Shown: one piece after another, positions 9,450-28,396 of the stretch
Position numbering within the stretch: position 1 is the first letter of the stretch
How the letters are laid out: each line of letters opens with the position of its first letter
Assembly: GCA_018826885.1 (NCBI GenBank)
Contig: JAHJYN010000069.1
Coordinates: 1 to 35,576 of the forward strand
Reading direction: 5' to 3'
DNA length: 35,576 nucleotides
Source: Alphaproteobacteria bacterium
GTDB taxonomy: Bacteria > Pseudomonadota > Alphaproteobacteria > Caulobacterales > Caulobacteraceae
The notes under the pieces: generated by a model
Seen by the model: the letters and a program-made list of their open reading frames with translations, nothing else
Databases searched by the model: none
What the model was told of the DNA's origin: nothing
Translations under genes and position numbers: made by a program

Positions 9450-10787
9450 TCAGTCCCGGTCGCGGTGGTCGGCCGGGTGGATGCCGTGCCGCGCCATCTT
9501 GTCGTAAAGCGTCTTGCGCGGCAGGCGGAGCGCGGCAGTGACCTTGCGGACATCGCCGCGGCAACTACTCAGGGCTTCGCGGATCAGCTCGGCTTCATAG
9601 CGGGCGACCCTGTGGGCCAGACTGTCCTGTGCGCTATCGGGCGCGCTGTCCGAGAGGCCGACGGCCACCTGATTGGCGAAGTTGGACAGTTCACGCAGAT
9701 TGCCCGGCCAGTCGTGCTCGATCAGGTGGCGACGTACGGCGTGATTGATCGGCGGCAGGGGCCGGCCCATCCGGGCTGATGCGCGGGCGAGGAAGCGGGC
9801 GAACAGCATCTGCACATCATCCGCCCGCTCCCGGAGCGGCGGAACGCGCAGCCGGACGACATTGAGCCGGTAGTAGAGATCCTCTCTCAGGTCCCCGCGC
9901 GCCACGGCCTCGGCAGGGTCGGTTTGCGTCGCGGCCAGCACCCGCAGGTCCAGCGCCCGGGGCTCGGTGGCGCCGAGCGGCAGGACCTCGCGCTCCTCCA
10001 GAACCCGAAGCAGGGTCAGTTGCGCCTGCCGGGGGGCCAGGTCGACCTCGTCGAGAAACAGGCTGCCCTGATGAGACTGTTCGACCTGACCTTCCCGTCG
10101 CCGGGTGACCCCGGACGCATAGCCGACGTCCTGCCCCATCAGCTGCGCCTCGACCCCCGCCTCGGTCAGGGCGGCACAGGTCACGGCGATAAAGGGTCTC
10201 GGGCGTCGTCGGCCCGCGTTGTGGATCGCACGGGCCACGGCCTCCTTGCCCGAACCGGTCTCGCCTTCGATCAGGACATCGACCTCGGCGTCGGCCAGTT
10301 GCCGGATCGCCCCGCGCAGGGCGGTGATGGACGCACTCTCCCCGCTGAGGGGAATGGACTGTTCGGTCTCGGCCGCGAGCGTCGCGAGCCGCCGGTTGTC
10401 GAGGATCAGGGCGCGCTTCTCCAGCGCCCGCCTCAGGGTTTCGATCAATCGCTCGGGCGCGAAGGGCTTGGCCAGGAAGTCATAGGCGCCGCGCTTCATC
10501 GCCTCGACGGCGTCGGCGATGTCGCCGTGTCCGGTGATCAGGACCACGGGCAGGTCCGGGTCGAGCGCGGTCAGCCGATCGGCGAATTGACGACCGTCCA
10601 TGCCGGGCATCCTGAGGTCGGTGACCACCACCCCCTCGAACCCTGCCCCCACGACCTTCAGGGCCGCCTCGGCCGAGGGATAGGTCGTGACGTTGAGACC
10701 GGCCAGTCCCAGGCGCTCGGCCAGGGCGTCGCGAAACGGGGCGTCGTCCTCGACAAGGGCGATACGATCAAGGGCGGCGAAGCTCAT
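9450..10787 (-). CDS. dctD: DctD-like response regulator (receiver + AAA+ + Fis-type HTH)
   Basis: Receiver VEDDAPFRDAL...VVVTDLRMPGMDG...VLITGHGD..KPF; AAA+ Walker A GETGSGKEAVARAIH; Walker B GSLFLDEVDL; C-terminal Fis HTH. Partner of the adjacent DctB-like kinase, next to dctA. GAFTGA motif is replaced by GYASGV. Confidence 0.9.
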   Translation of the reverse strand: MSFAALDRIALVEDDAPFRDALAERLGLAGLNVTTYPSAEAALKVVGAGFEGVVVTDLRMPGMDGRQFADRLTALDPDLPVVLITGHGDIADAVEAMKRGAYDFLAKPFAPERLIETLRRALEKRALILDNRRLATLAAETEQSIPLSGESASITALRGAIRQLADAEVDVLIEGETGSGKEAVARAIHNAGRRRPRPFIAVTCAALTEAGVEAQLMGQDVGYASGVTRRREGQVEQSHQGSLFLDEVDLAPRQAQLTLLRVLEEREVLPLGATEPRALDLRVLAATQTDPAEAVARGDLREDLYYRLNVVRLRVPPLRERADDVQMLFARFLARASARMGRPLPPINHAVRRHLIEHDWPGNLRELSNFANQVAVGLSDSAPDSAQDSLAHRVARYEAELIREALSSCRGDVRKVTAALRLPRKTLYDKMARHGIHPADHRDRD

Positions 10788-12589
10788 GATGCATGCGCCA
10801 GAACGATCTGGAATACAGTGCCGACCGGGGAGGGTTCGTGGGACAGTTCGCCCCCGAACCCGGCAACGATATCGCGGCTGATGACCAGCCCCAGCCCCAG
10901 CCCCGACGCCTTGCTGGTGACGAAGGGGGTGAACAGGCGCTCGCGCACGTCCTCCGGCAGGCCGGGCCCATTGTCGGTGAGGCGGATCACGACTTTTCGT
11001 CCAGTCCGTCTGGAGGACAGAGCCAGGGTCGGCGTCGCGGCACCCTCCAGCGCCTCAATGGAATTCTGGAGCAGGTTCAGCACGACCTGTTCCAGTCGGT
11101 TGCGTTCGGCCTTGACCTTCAGGCCCGGAGACAGGGCGGAGCGGTCCAGCCAGATGCCGCGTTCCCGAAGCCGCGCCGCGACCAGCAACAGGGCACCATC
11201 GATGGCCTCTTCCACATCGACGGCCACCACCTCCGACCGGGTCTTGCGGGAGAAGGCTCGCAACTCGTCGGTGATGGTCCCGACGCGCTCGGTCAGGCCG
11301 GAGATCGACGTCAGACTGCGGAGGGCCGCATCGTTGTCGCCCCGCTCGAGATAGACTCCTGCGGTGTCGGCGTGGGTGCGGATCGCCGCAATCGGTTGGT
11401 TGATCTCATGGGCGACCCCGGCCGCAATCTGACCCACCGTGGCCAGCTTGTTGGCCTGCACCAGCTCGTCCTCAAGCACCTGACGGCTCAGTTCGAGGCC
11501 GCGGCGTTCCTCCATCTCGTGGCTGAGGGCCTCATTGGCCGCACTGAGCTCCGCAGTCCTGAGTGTCACCTGCCGTTCCAGTTCGGCGCGCGCAGCTTCC
11601 TGCTCGATCGCGCGATTGCGGGCTCTCTGACGCCGCCGAAGCAGGATACCGGTCAGCCCGGCCAGCAGGGCGATGCTGAGGCCGGCAAGAATGCGTGCCG
11701 CCCCAACGGCGCGCGACATCATCTGATCGGCGGGCCAAAGCAGATGGAGCGTCCATCCCAGCCCCATGCTGGCATCGGTCTCGTGGGCGTAAAGCCGGGA
11801 CACGCCGTCGCGGCTGACCCTCAGGAGACCCGACCCGGGCGCGGCGAACGGCATGTCCTGCAACGGTTCGCCGGTCGTTTGTTCCTCGGCCAGCTGCCTG
11901 CGCCGGGCCTCGCTGAGGGTGCGGGTCGTGCGAAAGCGCCATTCAGGCGACGTCGTGATCAGGACGACACCGTCAGCGTCCGTGACATAGGTGGGCTCGC
12001 CGGCGCTGCGCCAGGTCTGCTCCAGGGCGTCGAACTCGACCTTGGCGACGATCACGCCGGCCGGCGTCCCGTCGGCACTGTCGATGCGCCGCGCGAGGTA
12101 AAGCCCGGGCCTGCCGCTGACGGTCCCGAGGGCAAAGAAAGCCGCCTCGCCGTCGCGCATGGCCTCGATATAGTAGGGACGAAAGCGATAGTTCGAGCCG
12201 ACGAAACTGGTCGGCTCCCGCCAGTTGCTGGCCGCCAGCGCCGTGCCGTCTGCATCGAGGACATAGAGGGCGGCTGCCCGTACCTCTCCCGCCAGCTGTT
12301 CCAGCTTCAGGTTCAACCGATCCCGACGCTCGGTCGACGGCGTGCTCACGAGGGCGAGAAGTTCGGGATCGACCGCCAAAACCGAGGGTACGGTTTGCTG
12401 GCGCTCCAACTCACTCGCCAGGACGGCCCCGTGCAAAACGGCGGCGGTCTCGGCCTGTCTGCGGGTCGCGGCCTCGGCATCCATCCGCGCCAGCCAGCCG
12501 GCCACGCCGATCGCCAGCACGCCGACGATCAGCCAGACGCCCGCGAACAGGCGCCACTGAGTCGTCTGGGACAGGCGGGACAATGTCAT
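10784..12589 (-). CDS. dctB: DctB-like C4-dicarboxylate sensor histidine kinase
   Basis: Two TM segments flanking a periplasmic sensor region; H-box GQIAAGVAHEINQPIAAIRTHADTAGVYL; N-box NLLQNSIEAL; G boxes DNGPGLP and GLGLGLVISRDI. ATGA overlap with dctD. Confidence 0.92.
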   Translation of the reverse strand: MTLSRLSQTTQWRLFAGVWLIVGVLAIGVAGWLARMDAEAATRRQAETAAVLHGAVLASELERQQTVPSVLAVDPELLALVSTPSTERRDRLNLKLEQLAGEVRAAALYVLDADGTALAASNWREPTSFVGSNYRFRPYYIEAMRDGEAAFFALGTVSGRPGLYLARRIDSADGTPAGVIVAKVEFDALEQTWRSAGEPTYVTDADGVVLITTSPEWRFRTTRTLSEARRRQLAEEQTTGEPLQDMPFAAPGSGLLRVSRDGVSRLYAHETDASMGLGWTLHLLWPADQMMSRAVGAARILAGLSIALLAGLTGILLRRRQRARNRAIEQEAARAELERQVTLRTAELSAANEALSHEMEERRGLELSRQVLEDELVQANKLATVGQIAAGVAHEINQPIAAIRTHADTAGVYLERGDNDAALRSLTSISGLTERVGTITDELRAFSRKTRSEVVAVDVEEAIDGALLLVAARLRERGIWLDRSALSPGLKVKAERNRLEQVVLNLLQNSIEALEGAATPTLALSSRRTGRKVVIRLTDNGPGLPEDVRERLFTPFVTSKASGLGLGLVISRDIVAGFGGELSHEPSPVGTVFQIVLAHAS

Positions 12590-12596
12590 GGGTCAA

Positions 12597-12616
12597 CAAT
12601 GCGGATTTTCGCACAA
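12597..12616. promoter_or_regulatory. Putative DctD operator, copy 1
   Basis: caaTGCGGATTTTCGCACAA; matches 16/20 the reverse complement of copy 2. Confidence 0.6.
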
Positions 12617-12629
12617 ATGGCCAGACAAG

Positions 12630-12649
12630 TTGTGCGTAAATCCGCACAA
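12630..12649. promoter_or_regulatory. Putative DctD operator, copy 2
   Basis: TTGTGCG-TAAATC-CGCACAA, perfect 7-bp inverted arms. Centre lies 33 bp (about 3 helical turns) from copy 1, in the dctB/dctA intergenic region. Confidence 0.65.
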
Positions 12650-12728
12650 TCGGGCGACTTTTCAGACGACACCGAGGATTATCGGTAGGATTGTCAATGA
12701 GATAACCTTGCTTTCACCTGCTCTTGCC

Positions 12729-12746
12729 GATCCGGCTTGCCGGTTC
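12729..12746. repeat. Inverted repeat upstream of dctA
   Basis: GATCCGGC-TT-GCCGGTTC, 8-bp arms with one mismatch. Confidence 0.4.
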
Positions 12747-12824
12747 CGATACTGGCGCTCTGCGATGCCGATGAACGGCACGTGGGCGTAGTACGGACAA
12801 TGATCCGTCGAGGGAGGTTCAGGT

Positions 12825-14183
12825 TTGATCCAGGTTCATCACGACCAGGGTGCGTCCACGCATCGCCAGCCCATCTGGAAGCACCTGTACTTCCAGGTTC
12901 TGGTGGCGATCACCGTCGGCGGCCTCATCGGACACTTCTTCCCCGAGACCGGCGAAAGCATGAAGCCGCTCGGCGATGCCTTCATCAAGCTGGTGAAGAT
13001 GGTCATCGCCCCCGTGATCTTCCTGACCATTGTGATCGGCATTGCCGGGATGCGCGACATTGGCCGGGTGGGCCGGGTCGCGGCCAAGGCCTTCGGCTAT
13101 TTCTTCGTCTTCTCGACTCTCGCGCTGATCATCGGCCTGACGGTCGCCAATGTGGTCCGCCCCGGTGACGGGCTGAACATCGACCCGGCGACCCTGGATT
13201 CGGGGGCAGTCGCGCAATACGCCGAGGCCGCCCATGAAAGCACCATCGTCGGCTTCCTGATGAGCATCATCCCGGACAGCCTCTTCGGGGCCTTCACCTC
13301 AGGCAACATCCTGCAGGTGCTGTTCGTCTCGATCCTGTTCGGCATCGCCCTGGCCCTCATTGGCGAACGCGGCCAGCCGATCATCGACTTCTTCGAGACC
13401 GCCAGCCTCGCAGTGTTCAAGCTGGTGGCCATTGTCATGAAGGCCGCGCCGATCGGGGCGCTGGGCGCCTTCGCCTTCACCATCGGCGCCTATGGCATCG
13501 CCTCGATCGCCAACCTGGCTGCGCTGATCGCGACCTTCTATGTGACCTCGTTGATCTTCGTGCTGGGGGTCCTCGGGCTGGTGGCCTGGGCCAACGGCTT
13601 CTCGATCTTCAAGTTGATCCGCTACCTCAAGGAGGAGCTGCTGCTGGTGCTGGGCACCTCCAGCTCCGAGGCGGCCCTGCCCAGCCTGATCGCCAAGATG
13701 GAGCGGGCCGGAGCGGCCAAGTCGGTCGTCGGTCTGGTCGTGCCGACCGGCTATTCCTTCAATCTGGACGGCACCAACATCTATATGACGCTGGCGGCCC
13801 TGTTCATCGCCCAGGCGCTGAATATCGACCTCACCATCTGGCAGCAGCTGACGCTGCTCCTGGTCGCCATGCTCAGCTCCAAGGGCGCAGCCGGAATCAC
13901 CGGCGCGGGCTTTATCACCCTGGCCGCCACCCTGATGGTGGTGCCTGATGTGCCGGTCGCCGGCATGGCCCTGATCCTCGGCATCGACCGCTTCATGAGC
14001 GAGTGCCGGGCCCTCACCAACTTCATCGGCAACGCCGTGGCCACGGTCGTCGTGGCTCGCTGGGAAAAGGCGCTGGATACGGACGCCCTGACCCTGGCGC
14101 TGAACGGCAAGCCTCAACCGCTGGCTGCCGCGCCCGATCCGGCGGCCGGCCCGGGGGACGATCTGGTTCTGGCGGACGACTGA
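12825..14183 (+). CDS. dctA: C4-dicarboxylate transporter DctA (dicarboxylate/amino acid:cation symporter), TTG start
   Basis: [122 protein letters not shown] 7 nt upstream of the TTG. Confidence 0.96.
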
Positions 14184-14219
14184 AGCCGCCGAAAAACAAG
14201 AAAATCGAGGGAGGAAATC

Positions 14220-17200
14220 ATGTTGAATACACACCGCCAGTGGCTGATGGCAGGAACGGCCCTGCTGACCGCATCGGTCTTTGCGACCGGAGCCCTTGCC
14301 CAGTCTGCACCGGCCTCTGCACAGGATCCCCAGGATCAGGCTGCGGCGCGGGTCGATGACATCGTCGTGGTCGGCTCGAACATCCGGGGGGCCCGGACGA
14401 CGGCCGCCCTTCCGGTGGTCGTGGTCGACCAGGAGCAGATCGATGCGACCGGCGCTGTGTCCGGCGATGAGCTGATGCGGACCATTCCGCAGATGGGCGA
14501 CGTTCTGTTCGACTCGTCGAACAACCCGCAAACCAGCAATGCTGCGCGCGGCGACGTCAACTCCGTCAACCTGCGCTCGCTGGGCGTTGGTAACACTCTG
14601 GTGCTGCTGAACGGCCGACGTCTTGTGGCGCACCCGACCAGTCAGGGTACATCGGACACGGGGACCGTCCCCGTGATCAGCTACAACTCCAATGCCATTC
14701 CGGTTGGCGGGCTGGACCGCCTTGAAGTTCTTCTGGACGGCGCGGCCGCCATCTATGGAGCCGATGCCGTTGCGGGCGTCGTCAATACGGTGCTGCAGGA
14801 CGACTTCGACGGCCTGACGATCAGCACCCGCTACGGCGGGGCCGAGGGCACCCGGATGAGCGAATGGGACGTCAACCTGTTTGCCGGGCGCGACTTCGAT
14901 CGGGGCAATATCTCGGTGTTCGTCAACTATACGGACCGGACCGCGCTCTGGGCCTCGGACCAGGAGTTCACCTCCACCGACGATCTGCGCCTGCTGTTCG
15001 ACGACTACCCGGACTTTGCCGGGACCACGGCTCTGGACGGCCGGTCTTCGAACACCCCCTGGGGCCGGTTCAGCGTCGGATCGCGGCCCACGATCCGCTC
15101 GAACGGCACGGCGGTGACCAACACCTCCGGGTCCTTCCGCTTTCAGCCCGCCAGCTTCGGCTGTGGCGTGGACGTTGGTCGGGGCATCTGCATCAACAGC
15201 GGCAACCACAACTTCAACACGACACATCGGGAACTGCGGTACGACACCCGCTACGAGACCACGGTCCGGCCGACGGTCGAGCGGCTGAACCTCTTCCTGA
15301 CGGGGCACGTGGACGTCACAGCGGACGTCGAAGCCTTCTTCGAGGTCGGCTACTACTCCGCGAGCAGCGAGGCCGTTCAGCCGCCGGTGGTCAATCTCAA
15401 CGCCATCTGGATCCCGGCCAGCAACTACTGGAACCCATTTGGTCCGGTGACCTTTGCAAACGGCGCCGCCAACCCCAACCGCCTACCTGGCCTGACCAAT
15501 GTGCCAACGGCCGGCCTGCCCGTGCTGATGACGAATTACCGCTACGTCGATACGGGCTTCCAGACCGTCAAGGTCGAGAATCGTCAGCTCCGCTTCCTTG
15601 GCGGGGTTCGCGGTGAATGGCGCGGCTACGACTGGGAAAGCGCGATCCTCTATTCGGAAGCCGAGGCCGAGGACACCTCGCCGAACATCAACCGGACACT
15701 CCTGCAGCAGCAGTTGGCTCTGTCGACACCCGATGCCTACAATCCGTTCAGTGGCGGCTGCGTGGACACGACCAGCTATGGCGACTGTTCGCCCAGCAGT
15801 CAGGCTGCGGTTAATGCCATTGTGTTCGATCTCCAGCGCGTCTCGCGCACCACCCTGGCGCTGGCCGACCTGAAGCTGACGCGCGGGGACTTCTTCGAAC
15901 TGCCGGCTGGTCCGGTCGGTATCGCCTTCGGCGTCGAGGTCCGTCACGAAACCCAGGAGGATGACCGGGACGCCAACCTCGACGGCACCTTCACATTCAC
16001 CGACATGGTCACAGGTGAGACCAGCCTGTCGAACGTCGCAGCGGTCAGCCCCAATCCGGACACCTATGGCGATCGCACCGTCGGCTCTGCCTATCTGGAG
16101 TTCGCCGTTCCGCTGGTCTCGCCTGAAATGAACATCCCGCTCGTCTATCAGCTGGACGTTCAGCTGGCCGGCCGGTTCGAGCACTATTCGGATTTTGGCT
16201 CGGTAGCCAAGCCCAAGGTTGCGGCCGCCTGGGACATCGTGCCGGGCGTTCGCGTACGGGGCTCCTATTCGGAGGGCTTCCGGGCACCGAACCTGGAACA
16301 GACCAATGCCACCCAGTACGCCCGGGCTGGCAGCGGCACGGACTATGTCCGCTGTGAAGCTGACCTGCGCGCCGGGCGGATTGCCACCTTTGCAGACTGC
16401 TCGCAGGGCACCTCCGGCCTTTCGCTGCTTGTCGCGGGGAACCCGGACCTGGAACCGGAAGAGAGTGTCAATACCTCGTATGGCCTGGTCCTGCAGCCGG
16501 GCTTCATTCCGGAAGCGTTCGGAGACTTCACGATTACGGTTGACCGATGGACGATCGAACAGGAACAGATCGTCGGCCTCCTCGGCGTGCAGACCGCCCT
16601 GGCGCTCGACTATCTGCTTCGGGTGGGAGGCAGTTCCAACCCGCTGGTGACCCGCGATGCACCAAATGCCGATGATGTCCTGCTGTTCGACGGCACCGGG
16701 CTGACCGTCGCGGGAGAGGCGAGGTCGGTGAGCGACCAGTTCATCAACCTCCAGCCTCAGACAGTCAGCGGCATCGACTTCGGGATCAACTGGTCCCTGC
16801 GGCGCACGGCCTGGGGCTCGTTCTTTGCAACGATCAATGCCAGCCAGCTGACGGAGTTCACACGGGACCCCGGTCCGATCGTTAATGAGCTATACGACGC
16901 TCGCGAAGCTGGCACCATCAACATCGGTACGACCCTCCCCGACCCGAGCGAGTTGATCCGTCAGAACGGACGCCCGGAGTGGCGGGTCAGCACGACCTTC
17001 ACCTGGCGCAAGGGGCCCTGGCGGGCCGGTGTGTCGACCCAGTACATCGGCGACTTCGAACAGCCCGGCCTGCTGGGCACGTCAGGCGAGCCCTTCCTGG
17101 TCGAGGACCAGCTGGTCACCAATCTGTATGGCGACTATGAATTTCCTGACGAGACCCGGGTTCGCCTCGGCGTGCGCGACCTGACCGACGAGGGCCCGTC

Positions 17201-17282
17201 TCTGGCCGACGGCGGCTATCGCGGGTCGGTTCACAACCCCTGGGGCAGATACTGGTACATCAATGTCCGGAAGTCATTCTGA
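14220..17282 (+). CDS. Large TonB-dependent receptor
   Basis: 1020 aa. Signal peptide ending ...TGALAQ; plug VDDIVVVGSNIRGARTTAALPVVVVDQEQI...VNLRSLGVGNTLVLLNGRR...LDRLEVLLDGAAAIYGADAVAGVVNTVL; C-terminal ...NPWGRYWYINVRKSF. GAGGGAGG RBS; 36 bp after dctA with no terminator. Confidence 0.95.
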   Translation: MLNTHRQWLMAGTALLTASVFATGALAQSAPASAQDPQDQAAARVDDIVVVGSNIRGARTTAALPVVVVDQEQIDATGAVSGDELMRTIPQMGDVLFDSSNNPQTSNAARGDVNSVNLRSLGVGNTLVLLNGRRLVAHPTSQGTSDTGTVPVISYNSNAIPVGGLDRLEVLLDGAAAIYGADAVAGVVNTVLQDDFDGLTISTRYGGAEGTRMSEWDVNLFAGRDFDRGNISVFVNYTDRTALWASDQEFTSTDDLRLLFDDYPDFAGTTALDGRSSNTPWGRFSVGSRPTIRSNGTAVTNTSGSFRFQPASFGCGVDVGRGICINSGNHNFNTTHRELRYDTRYETTVRPTVERLNLFLTGHVDVTADVEAFFEVGYYSASSEAVQPPVVNLNAIWIPASNYWNPFGPVTFANGAANPNRLPGLTNVPTAGLPVLMTNYRYVDTGFQTVKVENRQLRFLGGVRGEWRGYDWESAILYSEAEAEDTSPNINRTLLQQQLALSTPDAYNPFSGGCVDTTSYGDCSPSSQAAVNAIVFDLQRVSRTTLALADLKLTRGDFFELPAGPVGIAFGVEVRHETQEDDRDANLDGTFTFTDMVTGETSLSNVAAVSPNPDTYGDRTVGSAYLEFAVPLVSPEMNIPLVYQLDVQLAGRFEHYSDFGSVAKPKVAAAWDIVPGVRVRGSYSEGFRAPNLEQTNATQYARAGSGTDYVRCEADLRAGRIATFADCSQGTSGLSLLVAGNPDLEPEESVNTSYGLVLQPGFIPEAFGDFTITVDRWTIEQEQIVGLLGVQTALALDYLLRVGGSSNPLVTRDAPNADDVLLFDGTGLTVAGEARSVSDQFINLQPQTVSGIDFGINWSLRRTAWGSFFATINASQLTEFTRDPGPIVNELYDAREAGTINIGTTLPDPSELIRQNGRPEWRVSTTFTWRKGPWRAGVSTQYIGDFEQPGLLGTSGEPFLVEDQLVTNLYGDYEFPDETRVRLGVRDLTDEGPSLADGGYRGSVHNPWGRYWYINVRKSF

Positions 17283-18606
17283 CCTGAACCCGAAAAAGGG
17301 CCGCCGCCTTCTGTCCGGGCTGGCGGCCCTCGCGGCGGGACTTGTCCTCGGCTGCGCTCCGGTTGTTGCGGGTCAGCGCCATGATCCGACGCTTTCGACG
17401 ACGCCGATCGACTGTCCCCGGTCGGTCGGCGCCGGCGTGACCTGCCTGTCGCTACAGGACGCGGCCGGGGCCTGGCTGATCATCGCCAAGCCCGCGAACT
17501 GGAACGGGCGTCTGATCGTCCATGCTCACGGCGGCCCCCGTCTGGGCGAGCCGGAGCGCGAGGACTCGCTGGAAGACCTCGACCGGTTCTCGGTCATGGT
17601 GCGCCAGGGCTATGCCTGGATCGGGTCCTCCTATCGGCGGGGGGGCTACGGCGTCCGCTCGGCCGCTGAGGATGTCGACCGCAGCCGGGCCGTCTTCTGG
17701 GGCCTGTTCGGGCGCCCCGAACGCACCCTGCTGCACGGCCAGTCGTGGGGCGGCAATGTCGCGGCCAAGACGGCCGAACTGTATGGCACCGATGAGGCCG
17801 GCACATTGACCTACGACGGGGTGCTGCTGACCAATGGCGTCCTGAACGGGGGCACCAGGGCCTATCAGTTCCGGGCCGATCTGCGGGCCGTCTACCAGTA
17901 CGTCTGTGGCAATCACCCGGCGCCGTCCGATCCGCAGTATCCGGTCTGGCAGGGCCTGCCTGCGGGAGCGCAGATGAGCCGGGCCGAATTGCGACGCCGG
18001 ATCGTCGATTGCACCGGCATTGGCCTGTCGGGGCGGGACCGGACCGCCCAGCAGAGCCGCCGCAAGCGCGACATCCTGGCCGTCACCGGTCTCGAGGAGG
18101 ACGAGCTGATCGCCCATATGAACTGGGCCACCTTCACCTTCCAGGACCTGGTGCAGGTGCGCCTTGGCGGTCGCAATCCGTTCGACAACAGCCGCACGGT
18201 CTACAGTGGCTCCTCGGACGATACAGCGCTGAATGCGGGCGTTGAGCGGTTCACGGCCGACCCTGAGGCCGTGGCCATGCTGGCGCACGATGCCGACCTG
18301 ACCGGCCAGATCGTGGCGCCGACGATGACCCTGCACGCCCTGCACGACCCGACAGTCTTTTATGCCGCCGAGGCCGTGTATGCCGAGACTGTCGACTCGG
18401 CCGGTCGCTCGCACCTTCTGGTTCAGGCCGCCACCGACGAAGACCAGCACAGCAAGCTGGAGGACGCCAGCTATCTGACGGTGCTCGCCGCTCTTGAGCG
18501 CTGGATCGACACTGGCGAACGCCCCGACCCGACCCGCTTCCAGCAGGACTGTGTGGCCGATCATACGCCCCGAAGCTGTCGGTTCGTCACGCCGACACTG
18601 CCCTGA
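17263..18606 (+). CDS. Exported alpha/beta hydrolase, probable lipoprotein
   Basis: N-terminus PKKGRRLLSGLAALAAGLVLGC (lipobox-like VLGC); nucleophile elbow GQSWGGN; candidate Asp (LHALHDPTVF) and His (ATDEDQHSK). Overlaps the end of the TBDR gene by 20 bp. Confidence 0.78.
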   Translation: MSGSHSDLNPKKGRRLLSGLAALAAGLVLGCAPVVAGQRHDPTLSTTPIDCPRSVGAGVTCLSLQDAAGAWLIIAKPANWNGRLIVHAHGGPRLGEPEREDSLEDLDRFSVMVRQGYAWIGSSYRRGGYGVRSAAEDVDRSRAVFWGLFGRPERTLLHGQSWGGNVAAKTAELYGTDEAGTLTYDGVLLTNGVLNGGTRAYQFRADLRAVYQYVCGNHPAPSDPQYPVWQGLPAGAQMSRAELRRRIVDCTGIGLSGRDRTAQQSRRKRDILAVTGLEEDELIAHMNWATFTFQDLVQVRLGGRNPFDNSRTVYSGSSDDTALNAGVERFTADPEAVAMLAHDADLTGQIVAPTMTLHALHDPTVFYAAEAVYAETVDSAGRSHLLVQAATDEDQHSKLEDASYLTVLAALERWIDTGERPDPTRFQQDCVADHTPRSCRFVTPTLP

Positions 18607-18630
18607 TAGATCGCAAACGGCCCAGCTGGC

Positions 18631-18655
18631 CGAACCCGGCGGCGTCTCGGGTGTT
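18631..18655 (+). promoter_or_regulatory. EcfG/SigT-like promoter candidate for ku
   Basis: CGAAC-N16-TGTT against a GGAAC-N16-CGTT type consensus, ending 25 bp before the ku ATG. Confidence 0.35.
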
Positions 18656-18680
18656 CTGACTCCGCAAAAAGGAGTCATGC

Positions 18681-19547
18681 ATGGCTGCGCGCGCATACTG
18701 GCAGGGCAATATCCGTCTGGCCCTGGTCTCCATTCCGGTCGAAATCTACGCGGCGGTGAAGTCCGGCGCCGCGATCAGTTTCCGCCAGATCCACGAGCCG
18801 TCGGGCAAGCCGATCTCGTATGAGAAGGTCGTCTCCGGCATCGGCCCCATCGACACCGACGAGATCGTGAAGGGCTATGAAATCTCAAAGGGCAACTACG
18901 TCCTGCTCGACGACGACGAAATCGAGGCCGTGCGCATCGAGAGCAAGAAGACGCTGGATCTGGTCCAGTTCGTCGAGGCGCACGAGATCGACCCCCTCTA
19001 TTTCGAAAAGCCCTACTACGTCGTGCCCGCCGACGATCTGGCGGAAGAGGCCTTCATCGTCCTGCGCGAGGCCCTGCGCGCTGCGAAGAAGATCGCACTG
19101 GGTCAACTGTCGGTGCGCGGTCACGAAAAGCTCGTCGCGCTGAAACCCTGTGGCAAGGGCATACTGCTGGAGACGCTGCGTTATGGCGACGAGGTCCGTC
19201 AGGGTCAGTCGTTCTTCAAGGGCATCGGCACCGACAAGCCGGAAAAGGACCTGATCGATCTGGCCAGTTCGCTGATCGAGCAGAAGACGGCCCCCTTTGA
19301 CGCCTCGGAATTCCACGACCGTTACGTCGACGCCCTGAAAAAGCTGGTCGAGAAGAAGGCCAGGGCCAAGGGCAAGAAGGTGCTGGAGGATGTCGAGGAG
19401 CCCGCATCGGCCACCGGCGGCAATGTCATCGATCTGATGGCGGCCCTGAAGAAGTCGGTCGGCGACAGCAAGGGCAAGACTGCGGCGAGCAAGACCGCCA
19501 CGCGCAAGACCTCGACCCGCAAGACGCCGGCGAAGAAGCGGGCCTGA
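18681..19547 (+). CDS. ku: Non-homologous end joining protein Ku
   Basis: MAARAYWQGNIRLALVSIPVEIYAAVKSGAAISFRQIH..., FVEAHEIDPLYFEKPYYVVP, RGHEKLVALKPCGKGILLETLRY; Lys/Thr-rich C-terminal tail. AAGGAG RBS. Confidence 0.97.
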   Translation: MAARAYWQGNIRLALVSIPVEIYAAVKSGAAISFRQIHEPSGKPISYEKVVSGIGPIDTDEIVKGYEISKGNYVLLDDDEIEAVRIESKKTLDLVQFVEAHEIDPLYFEKPYYVVPADDLAEEAFIVLREALRAAKKIALGQLSVRGHEKLVALKPCGKGILLETLRYGDEVRQGQSFFKGIGTDKPEKDLIDLASSLIEQKTAPFDASEFHDRYVDALKKLVEKKARAKGKKVLEDVEEPASATGGNVIDLMAALKKSVGDSKGKTAASKTATRKTSTRKTPAKKRA

Positions 19548-26943: not shown

Positions 26944-28396
26944 GGGGCCTTTCTGCCTGATCGACAGACGGGCCAATGCCCTGCGGCTGGTCGCCGTGGA
27001 TGCGGAGGGGCTGGCGCTCGGCCTTGCGCCCGACATGACCCTGGCGGATGCCCGCGCCCAGGTGCCCGAACTGGAAGCCTGGCCGCATGATCCGGGTGCG
27101 GACAGGGCCTGCCTGGACCGGTTGCGGGAGAGTTTTGGCCGTTTCTCTCCCATGGTGGCGGGCGACGACCCCCATGGTCTGATGCTGGATGTTACGGGCT
27201 GCGCCCACCTGTTCGGCGGAGAAGCGGGCCTGATGCAGGCCGTTCAGGCCCTGGCGCGGCGACTGGGGCTTGAGGCCCGCTGCGCCCTGGCCCGTACCCC
27301 CCAGGCCGCCCGCGCCCTGACCCGCTTTGGTTCGCCGGGAAAGATTGTGGCCGAGGGCGGGGACCGCCCTGCGGTGCGTTGCTTGCCGGTCGCGGCCCTG
27401 GAGTTGGCCCCGTCGGATACTCAGGCCCTGAGACGGGCGGGGCTGAAGACCATCGGCGATGTCGATGACCGTCCGCGGGCTTCGCTGGCAGCGCGCTTCG
27501 GGCGCGAGTTCTCGACCCGACTGGACCGTATTCTGGGGCTGGAGGATGCGCGGATCACGCCGGTTCGGGCCCCGGCCCCGGTCGTGGCGGACCGTCTGCT
27601 GATGGAGCCGCTGATCACGACCGAACCGCTGGAGACGGTGATCGCCGACCTGCTGGGGGATGTGGCATCCCGTCTGGAAGTCCGGCTTTCCGGAGCCCGG
27701 CGGTTCCGCCTGACCGTTTTCCGGGTTGACGGCCATGTCCGCCGTATCGGCCTCGGCGTGGCGCGTCCCATGCGGGATGTCCCGGGCCTTGCGCGACTGT
27801 TCCGGGAGCGGCTGGCTGCGCTCACCACCCCCTTGGACCCGGGCTTTGGCATTGATCATCTGCGGATGGAGGCGCTGGATCTGCAGCGGCTGGCCCCGGT
27901 TCAGGTCGACCTCGACACCACGACCGAGGGGAGCGAGGCGCTGGACGCCCTGATCGACCGGCTGGCGGCGCGCCTCGGGTCTGCGGCGGTCAGCCGGGTG
28001 CGACCGGCGAACTCCTATCTCCCTGAGCGGGCCAGTCAGCTGATCCCCGCCGGACATCCCGGAGAAAGGGAGACCACCTCCTGGCCCGAGCGGGATCCCC
28101 AATCCCCGCCGCTGCGCCCCCTGCATCTGTTCGACCCGCCCCAGCCGGTCGAGGTCATGTCTCCGGTGCCCGATGGCCCTCCGGTTCGCTTCAAATGGCG
28201 GCGGGTCACGCATCGGATCATCAATGCCGAGGGACCGGAGCGGATCGAGGGCGAGTGGTGGCGGCGCAGGGGCGGGCGGGTGCGGGACTATTACCGGGTG
28301 GAGGATGAGGAGGGGCGTCGCTTCTGGCTGTTCCGGGCGGGCCATTTCGGTGAGCTGCCGCCGCCGCGCTGGTATGTCCACGGCCTGTTCGCATGA
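26855..28396 (+). CDS. imuB: ImuB, Y-family polymerase-like protein
   Basis: LAVWFPLLPIDRLGSG.. at the position of the polymerase catalytic acidic motif; FGRFSPMVAGDDPHGLMLDVTGCAHLFGGEAGLM; ALARTPQAARALTRFG. GTG start. Confidence 0.93.
   Translation: MKRDHLSNRRHLAVWFPLLPIDRLGSGRPEGPFCLIDRRANALRLVAVDAEGLALGLAPDMTLADARAQVPELEAWPHDPGADRACLDRLRESFGRFSPMVAGDDPHGLMLDVTGCAHLFGGEAGLMQAVQALARRLGLEARCALARTPQAARALTRFGSPGKIVAEGGDRPAVRCLPVAALELAPSDTQALRRAGLKTIGDVDDRPRASLAARFGREFSTRLDRILGLEDARITPVRAPAPVVADRLLMEPLITTEPLETVIADLLGDVASRLEVRLSGARRFRLTVFRVDGHVRRIGLGVARPMRDVPGLARLFRERLAALTTPLDPGFGIDHLRMEALDLQRLAPVQVDLDTTTEGSEALDALIDRLAARLGSAAVSRVRPANSYLPERASQLIPAGHPGERETTSWPERDPQSPPLRPLHLFDPPQPVEVMSPVPDGPPVRFKWRRVTHRIINAEGPERIEGEWWRRRGGRVRDYYRVEDEEGRRFWLFRAGHFGELPPPRWYVHGLFA

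Follow-up and report, generated by a model that had tools for sequence, protein, structure and literature searches.

The DNA analysed is a stretch of 35,576 nt (the window) from a Caulobacteraceae genome assembly of 315 contigs. It carries the gene of the C4-dicarboxylate symporter DctA, followed on the same strand by the genes of a large TonB-dependent receptor (TBDR) and of an exported alpha/beta-hydrolase, with the two-component genes dctB and dctD divergent from these three.

9450..10787, minus strand: dctD, NtrC-type response regulator of 445 amino acids (Pfam Response_reg, Sigma54_activat and HTH_8; sigma54-contact loop GYASGV instead of GAFTGA)
10784..12589, minus strand: dctB, sensor kinase with a dCache domain (Pfam; PDB sequence search)
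12825..14183, plus strand: dctA, C4-dicarboxylate:cation symporter of the SDF family, 452 amino acids, TTG start (NCBIfam NF002461 and NF009587; PF00375)
14220..17282, plus strand: TBDR of 1020 amino acids, Plug and barrel domains (PF07715, PF00593)
17263..18606, plus strand: exported alpha/beta-hydrolase of an unnamed family, 447 amino acids (alignment, predicted structure)

The three open reading frames that a preliminary description of this DNA had reported as co-directional (dctA, TBDR and hydrolase) were all confirmed. The 36-bp gap between dctA and the TBDR gene was scanned and held no terminator-like site on the plus strand and no promoter-like site, and the GGGAGG ribosome-binding sequence that it contains before the TBDR gene is kept in relatives too. 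The 20-bp overlap of the TBDR and hydrolase genes, from which translational coupling had been proposed, is real in the window but clade-specific, being limited to the nearest relatives, whereas the usual arrangement elsewhere ranges from a short overlap to a spacing of about 60 bp (maximum 97 bp). A Ku gene starts 74 bp past the end of the hydrolase gene, and its apparent ribosome-binding sequence is covered by a stable hairpin (GACTCC-loop-GGAGTC) at 18600-18690.

A survey of the genus included 131 Brevundimonas-like genomes (the named relatives are Brevundimonas), whose counts are not phylogenetically independent; orthologues were scored as present at an identity of at least 54% for the hydrolase and at least 57% for the TBDR. 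The two proteins occurred together in exactly the same 69 genomes and both were missing from the other 62, and all the genus loci with sufficient flank (n = 38/38) showed dctB and dctD divergent from dctA, TBDR and hydrolase, in the order of the window. In a collection of named genomes, the TBDR gene was found directly upstream of the hydrolase gene in 70 of the best 80 loci, 63 of which also had dctA, and six of the seven others are cut by a contig end. The taxa bearing the cassette beyond the genus were Caulobacter, Asticcacaulis, Aquidulcibacter and Hyphomonadaceae, as well as Pseudoxanthomonas, Luteimonas and Tahibacter of the Lysobacterales. The Lysobacterales sequences were nested within those of Caulobacterales in the hydrolase tree, suggesting that the cassette was probably transferred horizontally between the orders. 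Poor conservation of the three-gene order had been named as a possible refutation of the single operon proposed earlier, and the order proved to be well conserved in both Caulobacterales and Lysobacterales. Since order and strand are conserved in the genus and in other taxa, and the TBDR and the hydrolase co-occur, the grouping is real and far beyond chance, and the case for the three genes as one conserved operon is, on comparative sequence grounds, stronger than first made.

Genomes of the genus without the pair retain dctA, some of them with dctBD, and no TBDR homologue was found within about 7 kb of dctA in them, a distribution that is consistent with a TBDR-hydrolase pair gained or lost as a unit. 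In the three pair-less loci examined (L155, L158 and L160; Pfam assignment for L155 and L158), a gene for an OprO/P-type porin lies directly behind dctA. Because a porin follows dctA where the pair is missing, the slot behind dctA seems to encode an outer-membrane entry step, which is filled either by a porin or by a receptor with a hydrolase.

A second dctA-TBDR-hydrolase set was found in the assembly, on contig C151 (L003), with identities of 97, 69 and 86% to the respective window copies. The possibility that it was a paralogue or a duplication was rejected, as the genes downstream on C151 repeat those at window position 26996 onward; the contig is probably the homologous one of a co-binned relative. 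The C151 TBDR is much closer to its B. poindexterae counterpart (89% identity) than to the window TBDR (69%), suggesting exchange of the receptor within a conserved operon.

The DctA sequence scored above both NCBIfam DctA cut-offs (NF002461, 672.4 vs 513; NF009587, 572.8 vs 570) and also matched PF00375, and the sensor region of DctB matched structures of S. meliloti DctB, which are C4-dicarboxylate sensors (PDB 2zbb, E = 4e-58; PDB sequence search). The TBDR domains exceeded the Pfam cut-offs (Plug PF07715, 45.1 vs 23.9; barrel PF00593, 101.4 vs 27), while no STN domain was found in the window TBDR by the Pfam scan. An alignment of 27 TBDR sequences had a mean column identity of 74%; the structure model was poor (pLDDT 66), too low for use.

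Two positions of the hydrolase gene are relevant for the function and location of its product:

17743..17745, plus strand: codon of the predicted nucleophile Ser161, in HGQSWGG (alignment, 107-sequence conservation)
17353..17355, plus strand: codon of Cys31, candidate lipobox VLGC (sequence; not kept in most relatives)

No family of Pfam or NCBIfam, including tannase and PHB depolymerase, matched the hydrolase at E<=0.001, and a 38-sequence profile found no sequence relatives in the PDB, PahZ1 included; named records label it as 'alpha/beta hydrolase' or 'hypothetical protein'. The predicted catalytic triad S161/D362/H396 was invariant in the alignment (107/107 homologues), and six cysteines, likely forming three disulfides, were conserved in all, or all but one, of the 107, which fits a serine hydrolase in the periplasm or at the cell surface. 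The AlphaFold2 model, built from an alignment (mean pLDDT 87), showed an alpha/beta-hydrolase fold, whose best Foldseek matches were MHETase, feruloyl esterases, LipA, lipases and tannase, with TM values of only 0.33-0.45. By fold class (GxSxG elbow, Asp and His), the protein is predicted to be a serine alpha/beta-hydrolase. The lipobox VLGC from which it had been described as a lipoprotein is present at residue 31 in the window, with an atypical Leu at -2, but this trait is clade-specific: within the Caulobacterales group that bears the receptor, the lipobox Cys was observed in about 10 of 57 hydrolases, and most of the others have what look like ordinary signal-peptidase-I signals. A lipobox was also detected in 15 of 22 Burkholderiales hydrolases, where no such receptor adjoins. 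The predicted mature mass of the window hydrolase is 45.5 kDa, and its B. halotolerans counterpart shows 89% identity to it.

The genes surrounding the cassette and its homologues supplied five clues to the substrate. First, nine loci (seven of Pseudoxanthomonas, two of Luteimonas) have a gene for a malic-enzyme-type protein of 765-773 amino acids next after the hydrolase gene, 115-154 bp downstream; in the L093 copy, Pfam detects both malic-enzyme domains as well as a PTA domain. Second, in loci of the Aquidulcibacter/Maricaulis type (L146 and L149) a 315-amino-acid gene located between the TBDR and hydrolase genes matches poly(aspartic acid) hydrolase-1 (PahZ1; PDB 6ve6, 3e-72). Third, four genus genomes (L259-L262) have a parallel locus in which genes for a PahZ1-like hydrolase and an STN-type TBDR are divergent from aspartase, FecI, FecR and SDF symporter genes, a probable locus for poly(aspartate) use. 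Fourth, paralogous TBDRs (42-48%) adjoin an SDF symporter, accompanied at L184 by a gamma-glutamyltranspeptidase and at L174 by an M14 carboxypeptidase, while others of the same subfamily (51-55%) adjoin a gamma-glutamyltranspeptidase and an M20 peptidase, with no SDF symporter. Fifth, in 14-15 of about 24 Burkholderiales loci, in which dctA and the TBDR are missing, the hydrolase gene has as neighbours a LysR gene in divergent orientation and one for a TctC-type carboxylate-binding protein; a TRAP transporter is encoded downstream in two Burkholderiales loci, and a tannase-family gene adjoins in four. Taken together, these neighbourhoods favour the release of a carboxylic acid as the putative function, malate first, and from the malic enzyme, the PahZ1 homologue and the parallel PahZ1 locus an oligomeric or polymeric form of malate may be inferred.

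Other neighbourhoods were recorded aside from these. Same-subfamily TBDRs beside a gamma-glutamyltranspeptidase, an M20 peptidase and/or an SDF symporter were observed at L183, L184, L178, L180, L186 and L187, which are possible loci for the uptake of gamma-glutamyl conjugates. In one Brevundimonas group (L105, L108, L111, L116 and L121), inspection by eye showed the hydrolase gene to be followed by a further TBDR-like gene and one for a PhoD-like phosphatase, which possibly represent a separate phosphorus-capture unit.

Candidate regulatory sites were located between dctB and dctA:

12598..12615, no strand assigned: palindrome TGTGCG-N6-CGCACA with 2 mismatches, upstream half of a tandem pair, probable DctD operator (pattern search, 39-locus comparison)
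12631..12648, no strand assigned: perfect palindrome TGTGCGTAAATCCGCACA, second probable DctD operator (pattern search, 39-locus comparison)
12724..12753, plus strand: candidate sigma70-type dctA promoter TTGCCG-N18-GATACT (pattern comparison across loci)

The two palindromes are 33 bp apart, and one or two matches occur at the same place in nearly all the genus loci. The number of 2-mismatch palindromes in the window alone was not above chance, so the operator assignment relies on the perfect match and on the conservation of position. A promoter resembling TTG...GATACT, a pattern chosen after a few of these sequences had been inspected, was found in 19 of the 39 loci, where shuffled sequences would give 0.7; in the clade of the window its place is mostly fixed, some 82-104 bp upstream of the dctA start. 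No sigma54 -24/-12 site above shuffles was detected upstream of dctA (window, p = 0.755; median p = 0.615 for the 39 loci), and rpoN is present in the genome. At about residue 222, where sigma54 activators carry GAFTGA, the DctD loop reads GYASGV, and in the Caulobacterales loci it is degenerate or reads GAFAGA, GAFPGA, GAFSGA or GAFNGA. In Caulobacter and Rhodobacter capsulatus, NtrC likewise lacks the sigma54 loop and acts at sigma70 promoters (PMC10274813); the present regulator differs in being a DctD. Control of dctA by DctBD, as proposed in the preliminary description, is therefore plausible and fits the tandem palindromes beside dctB, but it is probably not exerted through sigma54: the classical route is unlikely because GAFTGA is lost, no -24/-12 site exceeds chance and relatives share a sigma70-like promoter.

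The operon is interpreted, with a probability of about 0.6, as a nutrient-capture system for a bulky C4-dicarboxylate conjugate, with an L-malate oligo- or polyester as the likeliest form. A conjugate or polymer too large for ordinary pores would be driven by TonB energy through the outer membrane via the TBDR, as its family suggests, and the free acid would be released in the periplasm by the exported serine hydrolase, a role to which its export signal, triad, cysteines and pairing with the TBDR point. The acid would then be imported by DctA, the family of which is established by the matches above and the substrate of which is presumed. DctB would serve as the periplasmic sensor of this released acid, and DctD would activate the divergent dctA promoter from the two palindromic operators, probably via sigma70 and not sigma54 RNA polymerase, by analogy with the GAFTGA-less NtrC proteins. 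Such a sequence of capture, hydrolysis and import had been suggested earlier; the pairing in 69/69 genomes, the transfer between orders, the malic enzyme, the PahZ1 homologue and the parallel SDF loci now support it, while the substrate is a predicted one.

Several observations weigh against this interpretation. The malic-enzyme link is confined to two genera of Lysobacteraceae; Tahibacter, Pseudoxanthomonas sp. J35 and L117 lack it, and it may go back to an older link between dctA and maeB. The PahZ1-like gene inside the operon is confined to Aquidulcibacter-type loci, and the hydrolase itself has no characterised sequence homologue and only distant fold neighbours. Furthermore, ten rhizobial loci hold the hydrolase alone, next to aldo/keto reductase and CorA-type genes that give no functional hint; its occurrence apart from dctA and the TBDR in rhizobia and Burkholderiales shows that the hydrolase does not depend on them.

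A more specific version, which is less likely, would make the unnamed protein a poly/oligo(beta-L-malate) hydrolase of bacteria and the operon a TonB-dependent polymalate-utilisation locus of Caulobacterales and Lysobacterales, the enzyme being present without a TBDR in Burkholderiales (often as an outer-membrane lipoprotein) and in rhizobia. Polyesters of this kind, poly(beta-L-malate), occur in nature, and a polymalate hydrolase of about 43 kDa, outer-membrane located and end-cleaving, was purified from Comamonas acidovorans 7789 (PMC9210645). The Burkholderiales homologues of the window hydrolase have a predicted mature mass of 44-45 kDa and often a lipobox. Speaking against this version, the Comamonas enzyme is reported to lack serine-esterase activity (PMC9210645), to which the invariant Ser-Asp-His triad of the window hydrolase is a poor fit. 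No gene named for the Comamonas enzyme was found.

Among the alternatives, an unlikely one is a TBDR that transports unbound dicarboxylates or, like FecA, their chelates with a metal, and so stands in for a porin where the outer membrane is poorly permeable, with the hydrolase as an accessory enzyme acting on another target. The OprO/P porin that can take the place behind dctA in TBDR-less relatives would suit a slot for plain free-acid entry, but the hydrolase was never apart from the TBDR in the genus (69/69), and the operon has neither flanking FecI/FecR genes nor a detected STN domain in its TBDR, whereas other SDF-linked TBDR loci of the genus do have FecI/FecR.

A small ester of plant or algal origin, such as hydroxycinnamoyl- or galloyl-malate, from which a feruloyl-esterase-like hydrolase would free malate for DctA, also seems a doubtful substrate. 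MHETase, feruloyl esterases, LipA and tannase are the nearest folds, and a tannase-family gene is beside the hydrolase gene in the four Burkholderiales loci mentioned; however, the fold similarity is low, the hydrolase is outside the tannase Pfam family and neither the Caulobacterales nor the Lysobacterales operons showed genes for aromatic catabolism.

Poly- or oligo-aspartate (a beta-aspartyl amide), with DctA importing aspartate, is a rather improbable substrate. DctA-type carriers accept aspartate too, and a PahZ1 homologue lies within the Aquidulcibacter operon, but the genus has a separate locus with PahZ1, SDF symporter and aspartase, and the metabolic gene adjoining the hydrolase gene is that of malic enzyme and not of aspartase. 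That the TBDR-hydrolase pair is merely co-transcribed with a functionally unrelated dctA is very improbable, as the order is kept across Caulobacterales and Lysobacterales, the module moved between orders, and carboxylate-binding protein genes flank the hydrolase gene even where dctA is missing, despite the dctA- and TBDR-free occurrences in rhizobia and Burkholderiales.

Compared with known systems, the favoured capture of a dicarboxylate conjugate is closest in design to the CUT loci common to xanthomonads and Caulobacter (e.g. sux; Blanvillain et al. 2007, PMC1790865), in which a TBDR, a degrading enzyme, an inner-membrane transporter and a regulator are joined in one locus. The present operon has DctA as its carrier and a two-component system for dicarboxylates as its regulator, no carbohydrate-active domain or sugar transporter was found in it (Pfam/NCBIfam), and the words dicarboxylate and dctA are absent from the text of PMC1790865. 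The operon is a CUT-like locus of what would be a new substrate class, with the hydrolase as the putative degrading enzyme. It shares with S. meliloti-type dctA-dctBD the divergence of dctBD from dctA and a closely related DctB sensor region, but differs in the TBDR and hydrolase genes after dctA, in a DctD without GAFTGA and in a sigma70-like candidate promoter. The PahZ1 locus (L259-L262) has the same combination of a TBDR, an exported serine hydrolase, an SDF symporter and an enzyme feeding the acid into central metabolism, although its hydrolase is unrelated by sequence to that of the window, FecI/FecR take the place of DctBD and its TBDR is of the STN type. A literature search for dctA together with a TBDR returned nothing on point.

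A single design (TBDR, periplasmic hydrolase and SDF symporter) appears to serve the genus repeatedly, for conjugates of the malate, aspartate and glutamate types, a reuse that makes substrate prediction and mutant tests direct. If the interpretation is true, conjugates or polymers of C4-dicarboxylates would join sugars, metals and aromatics as targets of TonB-dependent scavenging, the unnamed hydrolase family, present in hundreds of genomes, would gain a testable role, and candidate genes would be at hand for bacterial polymalate use, an enzyme for which was purified in 1999.

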